Shown here: piece after piece, positions 48,881-63,458 of the stretch
Position numbering within the stretch: the first letter of the stretch is position 1
How the letters are laid out: every line of letters begins with the position of its first letter
Notes under the pieces: model-generated
Database searches by the model: none
Told to the model about the DNA's origin: nothing
Seen by the model: the letters and a program-made list of their open reading frames with translations, nothing else
Position numbers and translations under genes: made by a program
Assembly: GCA_934045905.1 (NCBI GenBank)
Contig: OW203762.1
Location: 18,322,345-18,386,344, forward strand
Origin: Leuctra nigra
Taxonomy: Eukaryota; Arthropoda; Insecta; Plecoptera; Leuctridae
Reading direction: 5' to 3'
DNA length: 64,000 bases

Positions 48881-51166
48881 CATAAAAAACACTTCGTGTA
48901 AAAATACCAGCCAAGTCTCTTCAACTAAAACAAAATATGAAATCTAAAAATTCTGCACTGAAAAGTAGTGATATCAAAAAATTAGCCAAGTCAAAACTTT
49001 ATTTGAAAATCAAAAAATACTTGGCGCATCGTGTACTTAAATAGCTTGGAAGTATAAGCCAATTATAAATTATACATGAAATATACATATACATAGTATA
49101 CCTATAATGCCCTAAAAAAAACGATGCGCCAAGTATTTTTTGATTTTCAAATAAAGTTTTGACTTGGCTAATTTTTTGATATCACTACTTTTTTGACTTG
49201 GCTAATTTTTTGATATCACTACTTTTCAGTGCAGAATTTTTAGATTTCATATTTTTTTTTAGTTGAAGAGACTTGGCTGGTATTTTTACACGAAGTGTTT
49301 TTTATGGGGATATCACTCCTTTTTTTAGTTTATTTTAACAACTTGTGACACATATGAAATGAACAATTACTAAATTCTTTTAAAAAATCATCACCCTTTA
49401 CAATTTCGTTACCACTAATGAATAGCAGCGTATGGTCCTAAATAATTGCTTTAAATGATCTTTCACGAAGAATAGCAAAGGTTTCATTCCAATCAGTCAA
49501 CCCAGTTCCGTGATATGGAAACACTTCGGTTTTCAAAATGGCTGCTGAACTTTCTGCAATGCCACATAGAATTTCTTTCTATAAATGATGTGTATCATTT
49601 TAAGCTTTCTGAATATGTATTTATTGTATAGGAGGGAATTATAATAATTTATACATTTGAATGACGTCATTTCCGGTCTCATAAATAGGAAAATTCTATT
49701 TGTACTGTTCATATTCCATAGAGATGGCCATCCGAATCGTTTGGCGCTAGTTTCATACCGATTTGTCTACCAGTTTTTGAGATATGACGTTACTTCCGGT
49801 TTAAAAATGGCGGCTGAAATCTCTGACCCCTTGAAGTATATTTGAAACATGATTATAATTTTATAAGCTGTCTCAAATAGTATATTTATTGCATCAAAAT
49901 AAAAATTTGTCAGATTATTAAAATGTGTGACTTCATTTCCGGTTTAGGTATGAGAAACTGCAAATATTATTGATGATAATACATAAAGTTGACCGTCTAA
50001 ATTGTTTTGCGCTGGTTTCGTTGAAATCTATTTAGCCGTTATTGAGATATGATGTCACTTCCGGTTTCAAAATGGCGGCTTCCGGTTGGTTTTATAACAA
50101 GTCACATGAGACGTCAAAAGTACATACGTTAAATAAATATCAAAATAATCGGATCAATCTTTGTTGCCAAAAAGCCAATCGATGTATTTCAAATTTTATT
50201 ACGTCATTTCCGGTTTCTTTAACATAATGTTTAGTCTTTTGCTACTTATCATGCATATAGATGACCGTCTGGATCGTTTGGCGCAATTTTCGTTTTCGTG
50301 TGCCCAACGGCTGGTGTGTCGGATACCTCGGTTCTCGTTAGATCACCGAGGTTAAGCAACATTGAGCGCAGTAAGCGATTGGATGGGTGACCATTCAACT
50401 CTGCCTTGCCCGGTTGCTGCCGTTGGGCCAGAGGGACTGGGGTGTTTGGGGGTTAGTGTGACGACCTCCCTCCACCTGTTATCAGTCTCTCGACGGCGCG
50501 GGTTGTGGAGGCTCGTGCTGTGAATGTTACACCGTCCTTCGGAAGGGACGTTAAGCCGTTGGTCCCCTTGGTATCTTTCGTCAGGAGTAGGCTACATGCC
50601 GGTACCGGGTTTCCTCTCCTCCCTTCTCTATATTACATTCTCACTAGTGGAGCCTGGCTCTGTTGAGAATATAGACTTAATAATAAAAAAAAAAAAAATC
50701 GGTCCAGCCGTTGACGAGATATGACGTCACTTCCGGTTTCAAAATGGCGGCAAAAAACCAGTTATAGCAAAAGGCACCTCAGACGCCAAAAGTGCATATG
50801 TGGTAAAAATTTTAAATCTATCGGTTCAGCCGTTTATGCTGTGGCCTGTTTACCATATTTTAGCTCCACCCTACTACTACTACTGAGATTATTATGAAAA
50901 CCGCCCTAAAACACTGTTTTCACGGCCCTCTAGCGCGCAAAGGGCGTAACCTATTGTTCCCAAATTTGGTATATGTTGTAGGGTGGGCCATAGCTCGAAA
51001 TTAAGATATATCGCAACAATGTGAGATTTTCCAATTTTAAGATCCAGTAGGCCGAAAATGCCACTTTGATGCTTACAGTAAAAGTGGGTTTGCTCCAGCC
51101 TTTTTAAATGAGTGTGTGCGCGCGCCGTACGACTTGGCTGGCGTGGAGCGACCGCTCCACTAGATT
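48881..51166 (+). mobile_element. 1.86-kb interspersed repeat beginning with a long hairpin (copy 2), with a SINE inside
   Basis: Same order and ends as the copy at 3687-5545. The opening hairpin arms (about 48,881-49,030 and 49,121-49,306) are kept. The right arm has a direct 35-bp duplication near 49,171-49,226. The later CTACTACTA run and the GAAAACCGCCCTAAAACACT block are also present. It is longer only because of the 5S-type SINE at about 50,300-50,698. Confidence 0.75.
50300..50698 (+). mobile_element. 5S-rRNA-derived SINE (SINE3 type)
   Basis: The head resembles 5S rRNA from its start (GCCCAACGGCTGGTG) through GGTTCTCGTTAGATCACCGA, GGTTAAGCAAC and GATTGGATGGGTGACCA. These cover the internal pol III promoter (box A, intermediate element, box C). 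The body has CGTCCTTCGGAAGGGACGTT and AAGCCGTTGGTCCC and ends in a 14-A tail. The homologous position in the repeat at about 5,060 lacks it, so this is a filled site with a known empty counterpart. The 5S part is too diverged to be a working rRNA gene. Confidence 0.85.
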
Positions 51167-52314: not shown

Positions 52315-54884
<2,570 letters not shown>

Positions 54885-56658: not shown

Positions 56659-59600
56659 TTATTTATCCTTCGTGATGTGCGAGGAATTATGAAGTCGTGC
56701 CGCTTTCAAAAGTTCCACAACCGCCTGATGTCCGCCCTCTTCGGCCAGCGACATGGCAGTGTCCCCATCAGGATCTCGCTCGTCCAACATCTCCTTCACG
56801 CAATCCCGCGTCACTCCTGCGAGCAGCACCTCCACCACCGACTTGTGTCCGTTCATCGCAGCTGCTGTCAGCGGAGTCAACCCGGAGCTGTCTTTCAGAT
56901 TGATATCGCCTCCAGACTGGATCAGCATCTCCGTGATCCTGTTGTGCCCCTTCTCCGCGGCGTAGATGAGAGCAGTCTTCCCGTCGGGAACTCGACACGT
57001 ATTGACGTAGTCGGCCTTCGCTGTGTCGTCGGAGAAGGATTCGAGAAGTTTCGCGACGACGATCCTATGTCGCCAGCGGGTCGCTCTCATGAGGGGCGTT
57101 CGGCCAAAGCGGTCAGGGACGGTGACGTCACCTCCTGCAGCGACTAGGAGTTCGATGATCGAGTAGTGTCCTTTACGTGCGGCTAGTAACAGAGCTGTGT
57201 CACCTTCCTTGTTGGCTGCGTTCACGTAACTCGACCGTGCTGCAGAGGAAGTGAAAGAGGAGAGCAGCAACTCCACGATGGACTTGAGACCGTGAGAGCA
57301 TGCTCGTAGCAACACCGTGAAACCTTCGTTGTCGTTCGCTAAAATGTCTCCGCCATGTTCGATGAGGGTCTCGATGATGTCATTATGAGCACTCTCTGCT
57401 GCAAGGAGAATTGCGTTACGTCCTGTATCTTTATCACGTATATTTACGTAATTAGCTTTTTCGTGACTGCAAGTCCAGGAAACTAGCAACAATTGGACAA
57501 TTTTCAGATGCCCGTGAAATGATGCTACCATCAACGGTGTCCACCCAGACAAGTCTTGGCGGTGAACGTCACCTCCTGAGTTGATAAATAGATGTACAAT
57601 CTCGTAATGTCCTTTCTTCGCAGAGTAATGCATTGCAGTATTCATTTCATTGTCAGTTGTGTTGATATAGCTTATTTTGTCCTCGAAGTCCTCGAGAAAG
57701 TCCAGCAAACTCACCACTGCAGACTTGTGTCCGTGTGAAGCATTCGCCATCAGAGGAGTCACTCCGCAGTTGTCTTGTATCTTGAGATCACCGCCAGAAC
57801 TGAGGAGAAGTTTGATGATTTCGTTGTCTCCTTGCCGGGAAGCTGATAACAAAGCTGTGCATCCGTTGTTGTTCCTCATCTTCACGTACAACTCCCTGGC
57901 ACTGTTGTCACTGAAACTTTGAAGGAGGCTTCGAACAACTGGAAGATGATTCCGGAAGCTTGCCAACATTAGCGGCGTATTACCCATGTTGTCCGGTAGA
58001 GCTAAATTACCACCAGACCTGATTAGCAGCTGAACAATCTCAGAATTACCATTCCTTGCTGCTAGATGGAGGGCAGATCTTTGGTATTTACGTTCGCAAA
58101 CATCAATGTACTTCACTGCTTCACGTTCATCAAGAGAAGCTAGCAACAGCCTTGCAATAACCTGGTGATCTTTCTTGGCTGCCTCCATTAAAGGTGTGAG
58201 ACCAGCATTATCCTGGATTTTATTTTCAGCTCCTACTTGCAAAAGGATCTCAACAATTTTGTCGTGTCCCGCCCCTGACGCCATTTGTAATGCTGAGCGA
58301 CCATCATTGTCTACTTTGTTGACAATTTTTCTCCTCGCATTCAGATCGGAGACAGATGCTGTTATTAACTTCACAATAGCTTTTTTGCCAAAGAAGGACG
58401 CCCTCATTAACGGTGTATATCCTTTATTGTCATTTGTCACGATGTTTCCTCCAGCATCGATCAATAGTTGAAAGATTTCTCGATTGCCTTTTTCCGTTGC
58501 CCAGAATATGGCAGATCTTTCCAACTCATTATCACAAACGTTTACGTATTCGGATTTCTCTTCGTCGGCTACGTTGTCCAGGAGTAACTGTACAACGTCT
58601 TTGTGCCCGTTTTTTGTTGCTCGAATCAGAGGAGTGAGACCATTGAGGTCTTTCGTTGTGATGGAAGCTCCGGACTCTATTAGAATACGAACGATCTCAA
58701 AATGACCACGTTTTGAAGCGGAATTCATAGCAGAATGCCCGTTGTTGATTCTGTTCACATATTCTGTCATTTCCGTGGCGTCACTGAACCTGCTCAGAAG
58801 CTGTGAAATGATCGCCTTGTTTCCGACGAAGGATGCTTGCATGAAAATGTTGTAACCTTTCCCATCAGTCTGACTGAAATCTCCTCCAGCATTGATCAAC
58901 AGATTGACGATCTCGGTGTTACCTTGACGAATTGCCCGGTGGAGAGCAGTGCTGCCTTCGGCATCAAATGTATTGACGTATTCTTCTCTGGCTTTGTCGT
59001 TGGGTAACGTGTCCAGCAGGACTTTTGCCACAGCGAAGTGGCCGAGGATGCAGGCCGAGATCAGAGGTGTCTGCGCTCTGAGGTCTCCTATTGTTACATC
59101 AGCCCCGGCTCTGAGTAGAAGTTCGACTATTTCAAGACCTGATTTGCGAGACGCAAGATGTAAAGCAGTGAGACCTTCGTTGTCACGTTTGTTGATGTAC
59201 TCCTTCCTGTTCGACTCATATGTGAAACAGTCGAGAAACAATTGAACAAGAAGTGTGTGACCTGTCTCAGATGATTTCATGAGGGGTGTTTGCCCCTTCT
59301 TGTCGGGAGTGATAACATCGCCACCAGAGTTGATCAGCACATCTGTGACCTCAAGGAAGCCGTTCTGCGCTGCGAGGTAAACAGCAGAGTCCCCGCGGTT
59401 GTCCTTGATGTTCACATAGACAGTTTTCTCTGTGATTGTACGGAAACAGCCAAGCAAGATCTCAACTGATCTTTTCCGTCCGTTTAAAGCAGCTTCGATC
59501 AAAGGCGTTCGTCCGGATTTCTCTCGTAGGTTTACATCTGCTCCTGACTTTACGAGGAGGAGAACGATGTCATCTCTTCCTTTCCTCGCAGCCAAATGCA

Positions 59601-62600
59601 AAGCAGAACATCCCTCATTTGCTGTCGAGTTAATGTATTCCAATGTACTATTCACTGCTAGCAATTCTTCAACCACAGATTTGTGTCCATTCAGTGAAGC
59701 TACCATCAGAGGAGTTCGCCCCAGCTCTCCCTTCACGGTCAAGTCGGCTCCCGCTTCTACCAGGATTCTTATCATTTCACATCGCCCTCCTTGGGAAGCG
59801 AAGAGCAAGGCTGTGTCCCCGTCAATGTCCCGAGAGTTCACATACTCTGCTTTAATTTCCTGGACAGAGTCGACAAGAAGCTGAACTACGTCAAGATGGA
59901 CGTATTTAGTTGCTCGATGCAAGGGGGTGGCATGTCTTTCATTCGTTGTTTTTACGTCACATCCCCTGGAGATGAGTAAACGCGCAATCTTCACGCTTCC
60001 GTGTTTACCTGCTTTGTGTAACAGAGATTCCGTGCAGTCATAGCCCGCTTGTTGCATCGGAAGACCTAGATCTAGCAATGCTCTCATCACATTGGCGTGA
60101 TCGTGTTTGATGACCAACTCCAACCTAGTCCTGTCGTGCATGTTTTGTTGAATGGTAACCAACTTGCTAACATCCAAGCTCTGGTCTTCCAGCAGCAAAT
60201 CAATGACATCCATCATGAGTGTTCCGTCCGCATATTGCAGGGGTGTCCAAGTCAGCACATCGTCCTCAATGTCTACTCGAGCCTTGTGCGACATCAACGT
60301 CTTGATAATCGGGATTCTTGCCTTCTTCTCTGATTGGTTGTACCAGCACGTAGTCACGGCCAGATGGAGAGCTGATCGGCCCCCCTTGTCTCTTTCGTCG
60401 ACGTCGTAATCTCTGTCCAACAAGGTGACGACTTCTCGTAGGTCTGAGTTGAAAACAGCGGTGTGCAGCTTGTGACCCTGTGCGAGGATTTGATCAAATA
60501 TTTTGTGTGCTACGTGTTTAAACTGCTCATTTGTGAATGAATATTGAATAAAATCTCTGTTTAGTAAGAATTTCTTAGAAAACCATTTAGCGGCAAAATA
60601 CTCTGCAAAAATTCTATGCAGGAATACGGGGGTGTCATCGATCACATTATCGATTATCCCTGTCTTTTCTTTGCCTTCTTTGATCTTTTGGAGGAATGGC
60701 ATACATTTCTGTTTAATCTTCTTGTAATGGATCTTTTGAAGATCGCTTTCATTCAACAGCAGAACGAGCGCTGCCTTTGAATGCTTCTTGTAGAAAGCCC
60801 TGCGTTGCTCCTCCAGAATCTCCTCGTAATACACATTCTCTTCTGACACCCGGTACTTTTTCTTGGCGTAAAGTTGAACTTTTCTCTCGACGAATTGTTC
60901 GATCAGTTGGAGAAGATCAAGTTGTTCCGGCAGCTTGCTCACAGTTTCGTTGGAGACCACATCCTGGAAAACCTCCGCCAGCATGTGAGTTTGTAGCGGA
61001 ATACATGCAAAGCTCATCTCATCGTTCATTGACTGCGCTGTGATCTTCAACAGCTTCGACACGAACCCGTTGAGCTCGCTAGCAGACAGGTCTGTAGATT
61101 TAACCCAATGTTTGAGCAAGAATCTGCGTTGGTCCTCTTCGTTGAAGACTTGAAGACAGATGGCCAAGGTCGAGAGATGATTTTCTAAATATTCCTGCAT
61201 GGAATGACGCGACGAGACCCACACGTGTTTCACCTTTGTCTTGAGAAGACTCGTTACCAATGCGCAACATGTTTTCAAGTATTTCGGTGCGATCTCGTCG
61301 AATGCGTCTAGCATGACTGCGACATTTCCTGAGTGGTTCAGGGCGTATTTGAACAGAGATTTCACAACGGGAGACATCTTGTCGAGTCCAAGAGCAGAAG
61401 CTAAGAACTCCTCCGCGCTGAAATTCTCAACTTCACTCTTCGCTAAGAGTGTGGCGTGATCATTTAAAGAAATGTTTACCACCCAGTAGTTGGGATGAGT
61501 ATTCTTGGTTTGTTGAGCTAAGTGCGAAAGGTATGTTGTCTTTCCCATGCCGGGATCGGCCGCGAGTAGAATCACTCTGTTCCTTAAGTCAGTCACAACT
61601 CTCGCTTCATTCTCATCGACGTATCTCTTGATTGAGGCAATACTACCCCTTGTCTTCTTCCAAATCAACTTATTGTCAACAAAATCAATGTAATGCACAT
61701 TTCCACTACACCTCTTCGGCTTATACGTAAGCTGTCCTTCTTCAAGATTACTGAATAATGATTCATCAGACAGATTGATGATGTCTTTTGAGTTATGTGG
61801 AGTCAAACCGGAAATGATTACTGTATCTGTAAAGTCACGGGCATTGAAAATATCTTGCCGCACAACTGTTTTCTGTGTAAGAGTTCGGGAAATAAAGTTC
61901 TCGATGGCAGGCTCAAGATGTTTGCCCACTGAAAGATTGTTGTTGGTGAGGATCATTTCAATTACATTTGCACTGAACAAAGTTGAGATATTTTCATTTC
62001 CGCCTTCTAGCATGGAATCTAACGTTGTTGTGTGTCCTTGTAAAATTACTTCTTTGTTTAGGATCTTGTTGGAGCTATGTTGATCCAGTTGTGAGAATTC
62101 GAACGAATCTTCAATTATTTCGCAACGTGTCTCCATTTTGTCTTGAAGTGCGTTGATAAAGGCATCATTTGGAGTTGAAAGAAAAATAATACGTTTATCA
62201 TTTTCCTCTTTGAAAACCTTCGACAACTCTGCACAAACATCAGCAATCTTCTCATCTTCATTGCCATCTTCACCCACAATCACAAGCAATGTCTTCTTGT
62301 CAGTGGTCCATGAAGAAAGAAAAGAATCCTTTGAGGCCAACAAACATTTCGATCCCACGAATATGTACGAACCCTTGTGCGTTTCAAGAACTTGCAGAAG
62401 TTTACTCGAAGCGATCTTCAACGAACTTCTTTCAACGAGAATGTTTACAAAACGGCTTTGTTTGTCGGAAACAAGATCCTCGAACATGCGAGTCGCACTC
62501 TCCTCAAACTTCACATCCAAACGAAACTTCTTCTCCTCCTGCGGAACGAGCGCTTCCGCCAGTGCCTGATTCAAAGACTGGAGCAGAATTGAACTGTTTT

Positions 62601-63372
62601 GATCCAGAAACTCCATACTGTCTCTCCACCAAGTCTTGAATTGTTCTTCATAAATCCGATACATTGAATCAATATCGACTCCATGTTTCACGCAAAGTCC
62701 AATCAATTCCTTTTTAATGACGTCATCCAGCTCGCTCTCGCTCGGCTGTCCTGTAAACACCTTCAGTTTACTCAAGAAGTCGACCACCTCATTGTCCTCT
62801 CCACTCACAGCTGCGTAAATATCTGCATCTCTCTCTTTCTCAAACTTGAACACAATCTCTCCCTCACTGTTTCCTACTGGCAGATACTCGTCAATTTCAC
62901 CCTTGACTTCATCCCTCTTTCTCAGTTGCATGTCCTCACTGGCTGACGTATTCGTGTATACGATGAAATCACAAAACTCAATGGAGCCTTCAAACAAAGC
63001 GTTCTTTTTCAACTCCAGCTCGGTTTTAATATCTCGATATGATTTCAATTGAGCATTAAGTGAGAATTTACCTCTGGCCGCTTTCAGCATGGCTCCACTT
63101 AGAAGAAACCCGTGTGCTTCCTTGTGTTTGAGCTGAAGGAACGAGGTGTGCCAGATGGAGGGATGTTCTGATGGTTTGTACTTGAACACTACGTCATCAA
63201 GACTGCCAGCTCCTTTGACATTAGTTGCTAGTTGGAACTCACGGCCGCTGGTGATGCCACGGAGAAACATGTACGCGGAGAGTTTATACTCGAACCCTTC
63301 TCCTTTCGATGTGGCGCGCGATTCCGTCTTGTCGTAGTGGTTGCGGCTTCTCTCTGTAGACAGTTCGAGGAC
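56659..63372 (-). CDS. NACHT NTPase with N-terminal nuclease-like module and about 35 ankyrin repeats (5' end missing)
   Basis: One exon of 2,237 codons, numbered here from the splice acceptor (minus-strand GTGTTTCAG, then GTCCTCGAAC). No ATG fits as start, so an upstream exon is needed. Residues about 24-145 resemble a PD-(D/E)xK nuclease of the Cap4/DUF4297 sort: GEGFEYKLSAYMFL, then SLDDVVF (D59, D60), then FLQLKHK (Q80, K82). A NACHT domain follows: Walker A DPGMGKTT (K611), Walker B VMLDAFDEI (689-693), sensor VSSRH (719-723), and FLHRIFAEYFAAKWF (917-931). Ankyrin repeats run from about 966 to 2,225, ending NSSHITKDK. This is a STAND-type design in which repeats sense a ligand, NACHT oligomerises and the N-terminus acts. 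Sensing and immune roles are inferred; the domains are visible. Confidence 0.93.
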   Translation of the reverse strand, partial: VLELSTERSRNHYDKTESRATSKGEGFEYKLSAYMFLRGITSGREFQLATNVKGAGSLDDVVFKYKPSEHPSIWHTSFLQLKHKEAHGFLLSGAMLKAARGKFSLNAQLKSYRDIKTELELKKNALFEGSIEFCDFIVYTNTSASEDMQLRKRDEVKGEIDEYLPVGNSEGEIVFKFEKERDADIYAAVSGEDNEVVDFLSKLKVFTGQPSESELDDVIKKELIGLCVKHGVDIDSMYRIYEEQFKTWWRDSMEFLDQNSSILLQSLNQALAEALVPQEEKKFRLDVKFEESATRMFEDLVSDKQSRFVNILVERSSLKIASSKLLQVLETHKGSYIFVGSKCLLASKDSFLSSWTTDKKTLLVIVGEDGNEDEKIADVCAELSKVFKEENDKRIIFLSTPNDAFINALQDKMETRCEIIEDSFEFSQLDQHSSNKILNKEVILQGHTTTLDSMLEGGNENISTLFSANVIEMILTNNNLSVGKHLEPAIENFISRTLTQKTVVRQDIFNARDFTDTVIISGLTPHNSKDIINLSDESLFSNLEEGQLTYKPKRCSGNVHYIDFVDNKLIWKKTRGSIASIKRYVDENEARVVTDLRNRVILLAADPGMGKTTYLSHLAQQTKNTHPNYWVVNISLNDHATLLAKSEVENFSAEEFLASALGLDKMSPVVKSLFKYALNHSGNVAVMLDAFDEIAPKYLKTCCALVTSLLKTKVKHVWVSSRHSMQEYLENHLSTLAICLQVFNEEDQRRFLLKHWVKSTDLSASELNGFVSKLLKITAQSMNDEMSFACIPLQTHMLAEVFQDVVSNETVSKLPEQLDLLQLIEQFVERKVQLYAKKKYRVSEENVYYEEILEEQRRAFYKKHSKAALVLLLNESDLQKIHYKKIKQKCMPFLQKIKEGKEKTGIIDNVIDDTPVFLHRIFAEYFAAKWFSKKFLLNRDFIQYSFTNEQFKHVAHKIFDQILAQGHKLHTAVFNSDLREVVTLLDRDYDVDERDKGGRSALHLAVTTCWYNQSEKKARIPIIKTLMSHKARVDIEDDVLTWTPLQYADGTLMMDVIDLLLEDQSLDVSKLVTIQQNMHDRTRLELVIKHDHANVMRALLDLGLPMQQAGYDCTESLLHKAGKHGSVKIARLLISRGCDVKTTNERHATPLHRATKYVHLDVVQLLVDSVQEIKAEYVNSRDIDGDTALLFASQGGRCEMIRILVEAGADLTVKGELGRTPLMVASLNGHKSVVEELLAVNSTLEYINSTANEGCSALHLAARKGRDDIVLLLVKSGADVNLREKSGRTPLIEAALNGRKRSVEILLGCFRTITEKTVYVNIKDNRGDSAVYLAAQNGFLEVTDVLINSGGDVITPDKKGQTPLMKSSETGHTLLVQLFLDCFTYESNRKEYINKRDNEGLTALHLASRKSGLEIVELLLRAGADVTIGDLRAQTPLISACILGHFAVAKVLLDTLPNDKAREEYVNTFDAEGSTALHRAIRQGNTEIVNLLINAGGDFSQTDGKGYNIFMQASFVGNKAIISQLLSRFSDATEMTEYVNRINNGHSAMNSASKRGHFEIVRILIESGASITTKDLNGLTPLIRATKNGHKDVVQLLLDNVADEEKSEYVNVCDNELERSAIFWATEKGNREIFQLLIDAGGNIVTNDNKGYTPLMRASFFGKKAIVKLITASVSDLNARRKIVNKVDNDGRSALQMASGAGHDKIVEILLQVGAENKIQDNAGLTPLMEAAKKDHQVIARLLLASLDEREAVKYIDVCERKYQRSALHLAARNGNSEIVQLLIRSGGNLALPDNMGNTPLMLASFRNHLPVVRSLLQSFSDNSARELYVKMRNNNGCTALLSASRQGDNEIIKLLLSSGGDLKIQDNCGVTPLMANASHGHKSAVVSLLDFLEDFEDKISYINTTDNEMNTAMHYSAKKGHYEIVHLFINSGGDVHRQDLSGWTPLMVASFHGHLKIVQLLLVSWTCSHEKANYVNIRDKDTGRNAILLAAESAHNDIIETLIEHGGDILANDNEGFTVLLRACSHGLKSIVELLLSSFTSSAARSSYVNAANKEGDTALLLAARKGHYSIIELLVAAGGDVTVPDRFGRTPLMRATRWRHRIVVAKLLESFSDDTAKADYVNTCRVPDGKTALIYAAEKGHNRITEMLIQSGGDINLKDSSGLTPLTAAAMNGHKSVVEVLLAGVTRDCVKEMLDERDPDGDTAMSLAEEGGHQAVVELLKAARLHNSSHITKDK

Positions 63373-63458
63373 CTGAAACACCACATATAATAAAGTTTAA
63401 AAAACCATAAAATATTGTATCCTGTACCTGTACCTACAGCTTAAAACATGATAGAAAT
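63373..63458. other. Intron start upstream of the NACHT-ankyrin exon
   Basis: On the minus strand this holds the acceptor TATATGTGGTGTTTCAG. No good upstream coding exon with a donor is visible before the window ends. Confidence 0.5.

Follow-up and report, generated by a model that had tools for sequence, protein, structure and literature searches.

A STAND/NACHT protein with a predicted Cap4/LmuA-like nuclease fold and ankyrin repeats belongs to a multiplied gene family in the insect Leuctra nigra

NLRs likely derive from systems such as the bacterial Avs (PMC11249213; here and below, papers are cited for the excerpts available to us). Among the nucleases used in bacterial defence, Cap4 detects nucleotide messengers via SAVED and requires Asp50, Glu67, and Lys69, the equivalents of which in AbpA are Asp45, Gln58, and Lys60, and cells in which AbpA carries Q58A or K60A fail to stop phage T4 (PMC10732053). 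DUF4297-HerA cleaves dsDNA only, via PD-(D/E)xK residues, and acts in abortive-infection defence, and a tetramer of the Avs3 Cap4 domain is named in a figure legend of the same paper (PMC11291478). In arthropods, NACHT proteins were described in 2016 together with a phage WO relative that has ankyrins downstream of NACHT (PMC5062602). Invertebrate TRADD-N expansions join STAND, HEPN RNase, and ankyrin parts, with very few or no TRADD-N domains in arthropods (PMC8195603). Here, we describe a single coding exon of Leuctra nigra at 56659..63372 of a stretch of 64,000 nucleotides (G000:C2:18322345-18386344, hereafter the window), which encodes in order a nuclease fold, a P-loop-like domain, a NACHT, and ankyrin repeats. 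With a probability of about 0.6, we read its product as a STAND-type intracellular receptor working like bacterial Avs3/Avs4. The fold, domain order, conserved residues, multiplication, and constraint reported below are computed, and all features of the gene lie on the minus strand of the window.

The N-terminal domain (residues 22-285, 62542..63333) includes a helical C-terminal part. An earlier note on this DNA had seen in it a PD-(D/E)xK-like module, and the two motifs concerned are located at residues 65-71 (SLDDVVF) and 86-92 (FLQLKHK). The fold predicted for this domain is not an unrelated one but that of restriction endonucleases, Cap4, LmuA, HerA-DUF, and Avs3 being the closest, and Avs3 (8dgc) is itself among the top structural matches, which makes the likeness to Avs drawn by that note an apt one. 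The predicted catalytic stretch D67 D68 ... Q88-x-K90 (63127..63198) stands in hhalign register with AbpA D44 D45 and Q58 K60. In the 21 sequences from this genome, E36 (63289..63291, a predicted helix-1 acidic residue), N59, D67, D68, Q88, K90, H91, T148, and N149 are each present 21 times. Among external homologues covering the sites, DD is kept in 10/10 (P0006 begins after DD, so it is not counted) and QxK in 11/11, meaning that the residues on which the note had founded its nuclease have been lost nowhere in this set, while E36 is found in 8 of the 10 external rows covering it and is lost in P0009 and P0011. Since AbpA needs Q58 and K60 against T4, QxK is a functional variant.

The nuclease-part alignment compared with an AbpA-type alignment gave a probability of 3.8 and P 0.011 initially, then P 1.2e-4, a probability of 55, and a score of 36.5 over 77 columns once ten homologues were added. 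The reversed target scored 14.6, and 698 of 700 column shuffles scored <=21.9; the remaining two reached 132 (15 columns) and 137 (11 columns) at the extreme template end and are taken as an edge artefact. Against the same AbpA-type target, the family alignment minus its nuclease part reached P 0.11 only. With the PADLOC profiles, LmuA matched 4/17 own copies (E to 9.2e-9) and the CBASS Effector/Endonuclease profile matched four others (E 0.009-0.044), the window copy being matched by neither. None of eight family members matched Pfam PF14130 at E<=10 while the AbpA-type positive control gave 7/7, so the domain is not filed as PF14130. A sequence search of the PDB returned five rows (E 0.024-0.31), whose names pointed to no nuclease relative, a further one returned no rows, and an NCBIfam search gave nothing relevant. 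A PDB profile search including the ankyrin columns was discarded, as all 60 matches listed fell in those columns. On its model, the N-terminal domain is a predicted Cap4/LmuA-type nuclease fold with the D...(E/Q)xK set, which would enable it to cut.

Restriction-endonuclease folds can be reused as binding modules, and the adjacent P-loop-like domain of the same protein is devoid of a Walker A. The fold could thus bind or scaffold without cutting any longer, as a pseudo-enzyme module through which an NLR-like receptor signals. We consider this rather unlikely, given that only 15 positions in ~200 columns are invariant and that the predicted catalytic residues belong to them, with a random chance of ~3e-4 that D68, Q88, and K90 all fall at invariant positions, and that the nuclease domain of AbpA needs QxK for defence (PMC10732053).

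The NACHT NTPase and its following helical and winged-helix regions occupy residues 600-960 (60517..61599). Pfam PF05729 matches the window copy at residues 607-763 (E 3.6e-5), with 24.1 bits, just below the curated cut-off of 26.7, and at E<=0.1 it matches 17/18 own-genome NACHT regions, the best at 3.6e-10. Walker A (ADPGMGKT, residues 613-620, 61537..61560) and Walker B (VAVMLDAFDE, residues 692-701, 61294..61323) are both intact in the window copy, as the earlier note had read them; PGMGK[ST] is found in 18 of the 19 copies covering the site and D..DE in 19/19. The remaining Walker A, that of copy L026, is PGMRKT, and the NACHT of this copy may bind ATP abnormally. The arrangement of nucleotide-binding, helical, and winged-helix domains of STAND/NACHT NTPases is present, and the protein is a STAND/NACHT protein. 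The array that follows (residues 976-2240, 56677..60471; Pfam Ank_2, E 1.8e-189) shows 31 consensus starts by regular expression from residue 976 and four double-length gaps, giving the ~35 ankyrin repeats already counted in the note. Their spacing alternates between 33 and 40 residues, a double unit of 73 residues; the array of the homologue P0002 is a 33-residue one as seen by eye. Overall, what the note saw in the sequence holds, and its guarded reading is strengthened. Two elements come in addition to what the note had described: the gene family presented below, and a second P-loop/AAA-like domain without Walker A between the nuclease fold and the NACHT (residues ~290-487, 61936..62529). 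The structural matches of the latter come from the joint model; it would most likely be a structural spacer or an oligomer contact.

The gene is not alone in its genome. At least 21 loci with the N-terminal part (21 of 413 candidates scored, hence a lower bound) lie on nine contigs: C2 (2), C4 (2), C5 (1), C7 (1), C8 (1), C9 (1), C10 (5), C11 (2), and C12 (6). In 18 of the 21, a single open frame of 1350 to >2500 codons spans the N-terminal part and NACHT, and ankyrin matches are found in all 21, which argues that the architecture is not due to chance. Of the 20 copies retrieved besides that of the window, 17 read through in one frame from the N-terminal domain to the ankyrins, and in L013, L024, and L025 an in-frame stop precedes the repeats. 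Over the first ~960 residues, no copy exceeds 42% identity to the window copy (computed on the first open piece only for L013, L024, and L025). A midpoint-rooted tree of 18 own and eight external sequences, built without L013, L024, L025, P0006, P0008, and P0013 and with some long branches flagged, has a branch (99/99) that sets the own copies apart from the external ones. The family has multiplied within the lineage, as expected for receptors in an arms race.

Selection was estimated from the ratio of nonsynonymous to synonymous substitutions (dN/dS, Nei-Gojobori). For the nuclease domain, five close pairs gave 0.18, 0.38, 0.30, 0.25, and 0.19, the last with a dS of 2.4, near saturation; seven pairs were computed, and the range quoted omits window/L011, where dS is saturated, and L023/L024, which show hardly any changes. 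Along the ankyrin part, windows gave 0.15-0.54 over seven pairs. These values indicate that every part is under selective constraint, which in most pairs is slightly looser on the repeats. Two pairs deserve a separate mention. L023 and L024, 40 kb apart on G000:C11, are 99.9% alike over 839 residues, one with an in-frame TAG, and could be either a recent duplication or a haplotype duplicate in the assembly. In the pair L011/L021, dS is 2.4 in the nuclease domain versus 0.5-0.75 from residue 300 onward, which points to recombination or domain exchange between paralogues.

This multiplication also bears on the function of the family. STAND proteins have many roles, so that an active nuclease receptor might have a main role other than antiviral, in keeping transposons, symbionts, or damaged cells in check or in killing cells during development. 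We hold this to be distinctly unlikely, since 21 or more diverged copies would be more in keeping with a conflict than with a constant role in development.

Outside this genome, the named homologues come from the cockroaches Diploptera punctata and Periplaneta americana and the beetle Zophobas morio. The Diploptera protein P0013 (305 residues) is the nuclease domain alone, and the Zophobas protein P0011 (1063 residues) has a nuclease-NTPase form, no Pfam domain being listed for it; both are shorter relatives or partial gene models and may shed light on how the architecture was assembled. P0012, a HEAT/ARM protein (E 4.9e-5), was dropped, as were P0014-P0024, taken for ankyrin matches since their search profile included ankyrin columns. 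No relative was confirmed in prokaryote species genomes and viral contigs, within the patterns used for these pattern-plus-tblastn scans, and residues 22-985 gave no tblastn match in a phage collection.

Bacterial defence proteins supply the nearest solved structures for the N-terminal fold, and one could therefore think of a contaminant or of a gene recently transferred from a bacterium or a virus. This appears highly improbable. In addition to the negative scans just described and to the fact that the named relatives with the nuclease part are insects, the copies are carried by nine contigs of 27 to 57 Mb in a genome of 536 Mb (144 contigs), and the window copy lies near a multi-exon gene and behind a site resembling a splice acceptor. 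The former, at 52315-54884 on the plus strand of the window, is past the 3' end of the exon and is the nearest recognised gene; from its residues we take it to be ribosomal protein S2 (RpS2), and it is an anchor to the host chromosome. As to the latter, a 2245-codon stop-free frame covers 56659-63396, and a pyrimidine-rich tract with a terminal tttcag closes at 63373 (predicted 3' splice acceptor CAG, 63373..63375), making 63372 the likely exon start, in line with the exon span proposed in the earlier note. The first in-frame Met, residue 43, falls within the conserved N-terminal domain, so the start codon is expected in an upstream exon; this exon was not found, and conserved upstream exons sought in six copies yielded nothing usable. 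Telomere motifs sought at eight contig ends gave nothing usable either. Around 50300-50420, the window resembles by eye a 5S-rRNA-derived repeat; an Rfam search with gathering thresholds reported nothing.

If the protein works as an Avs-like receptor, the ankyrin array would keep it off and bind the ligand, upon which the NACHT would bind ATP and form an oligomer, as its protein class suggests. Oligomers would gather the Cap4/LmuA-like nuclease domains, and the metal-dependent D...QxK site would then cut dsDNA; the tetramer of the Avs3 Cap4 domain is the model for such an activation by assembly (PMC11291478). The outcome may be the destruction of the invader DNA or the suicide of the infected cell. 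More generally, we see an even chance that arthropods keep expanded Avs-like "nuclease NLRs", that is, ankyrin-gated NACHT receptors that assemble Cap4/LmuA-type nucleases and degrade DNA upon sensing an invader, an animal form of bacterial abortive infection in which receptor and effector are one protein. If so, a large animal family uniting NACHT with a bacterial-type defence nuclease would constitute a class of intracellular receptors with an enzyme as effector, and the list of defence modules common to bacteria and animals would be longer.

How, then, does the window protein compare with known systems? For the nuclease fold, the closest are the Lamassu nuclease LmuA (PDB 9nxx, 9hr5), CBASS Cap4 (7yib, 6vm6), and E. 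coli AbpA; unlike Cap4, the window protein has no SAVED domain among its Pfam matches. Animal NLRs such as NLRP3, NOD2, and NLRC4 usually, but not always, have an N-terminal death-fold or pyrin domain. The Pfam scan of the window protein found neither LRR nor death-fold or pyrin domains; with ankyrins for LRR and a nuclease-fold effector for death-fold or pyrin, it is not a bona fide NLR. It shares with the arthropod NACHT proteins a NACHT in arthropods, and with their phage WO relative ankyrins after the NACHT, whereas no N-terminal nuclease is reported for these proteins in the text available, in which "endonuclease" occurs 0 times, the comparison being by description only (PMC5062602). Like the TRADD-N expansions, it belongs to a lineage-specific invertebrate family in which immune switches are combined with nuclease and repeat domains, but those expansions use HEPN RNases and TRADD-N, not a Cap4-type nuclease on NACHT, according to the excerpts (PMC8195603). 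A literature search, which left most subscription papers outside and is thus not proof, turned up no nuclease-NACHT-ankyrin family described from animals.

The Avs order of an N-terminal effector, a STAND NTPase, and C-terminal repeats is present in the window protein. The C-terminal sensor of Avs3 is made of TPR repeats, and Avs recognise phage terminase or portal. The window protein differs from Avs3 in having ankyrins instead of TPR, a NACHT most like that of animal NLRP3, and an extra P-loop-like domain without Walker A. It is not an Avs, but on paper it would work like one.
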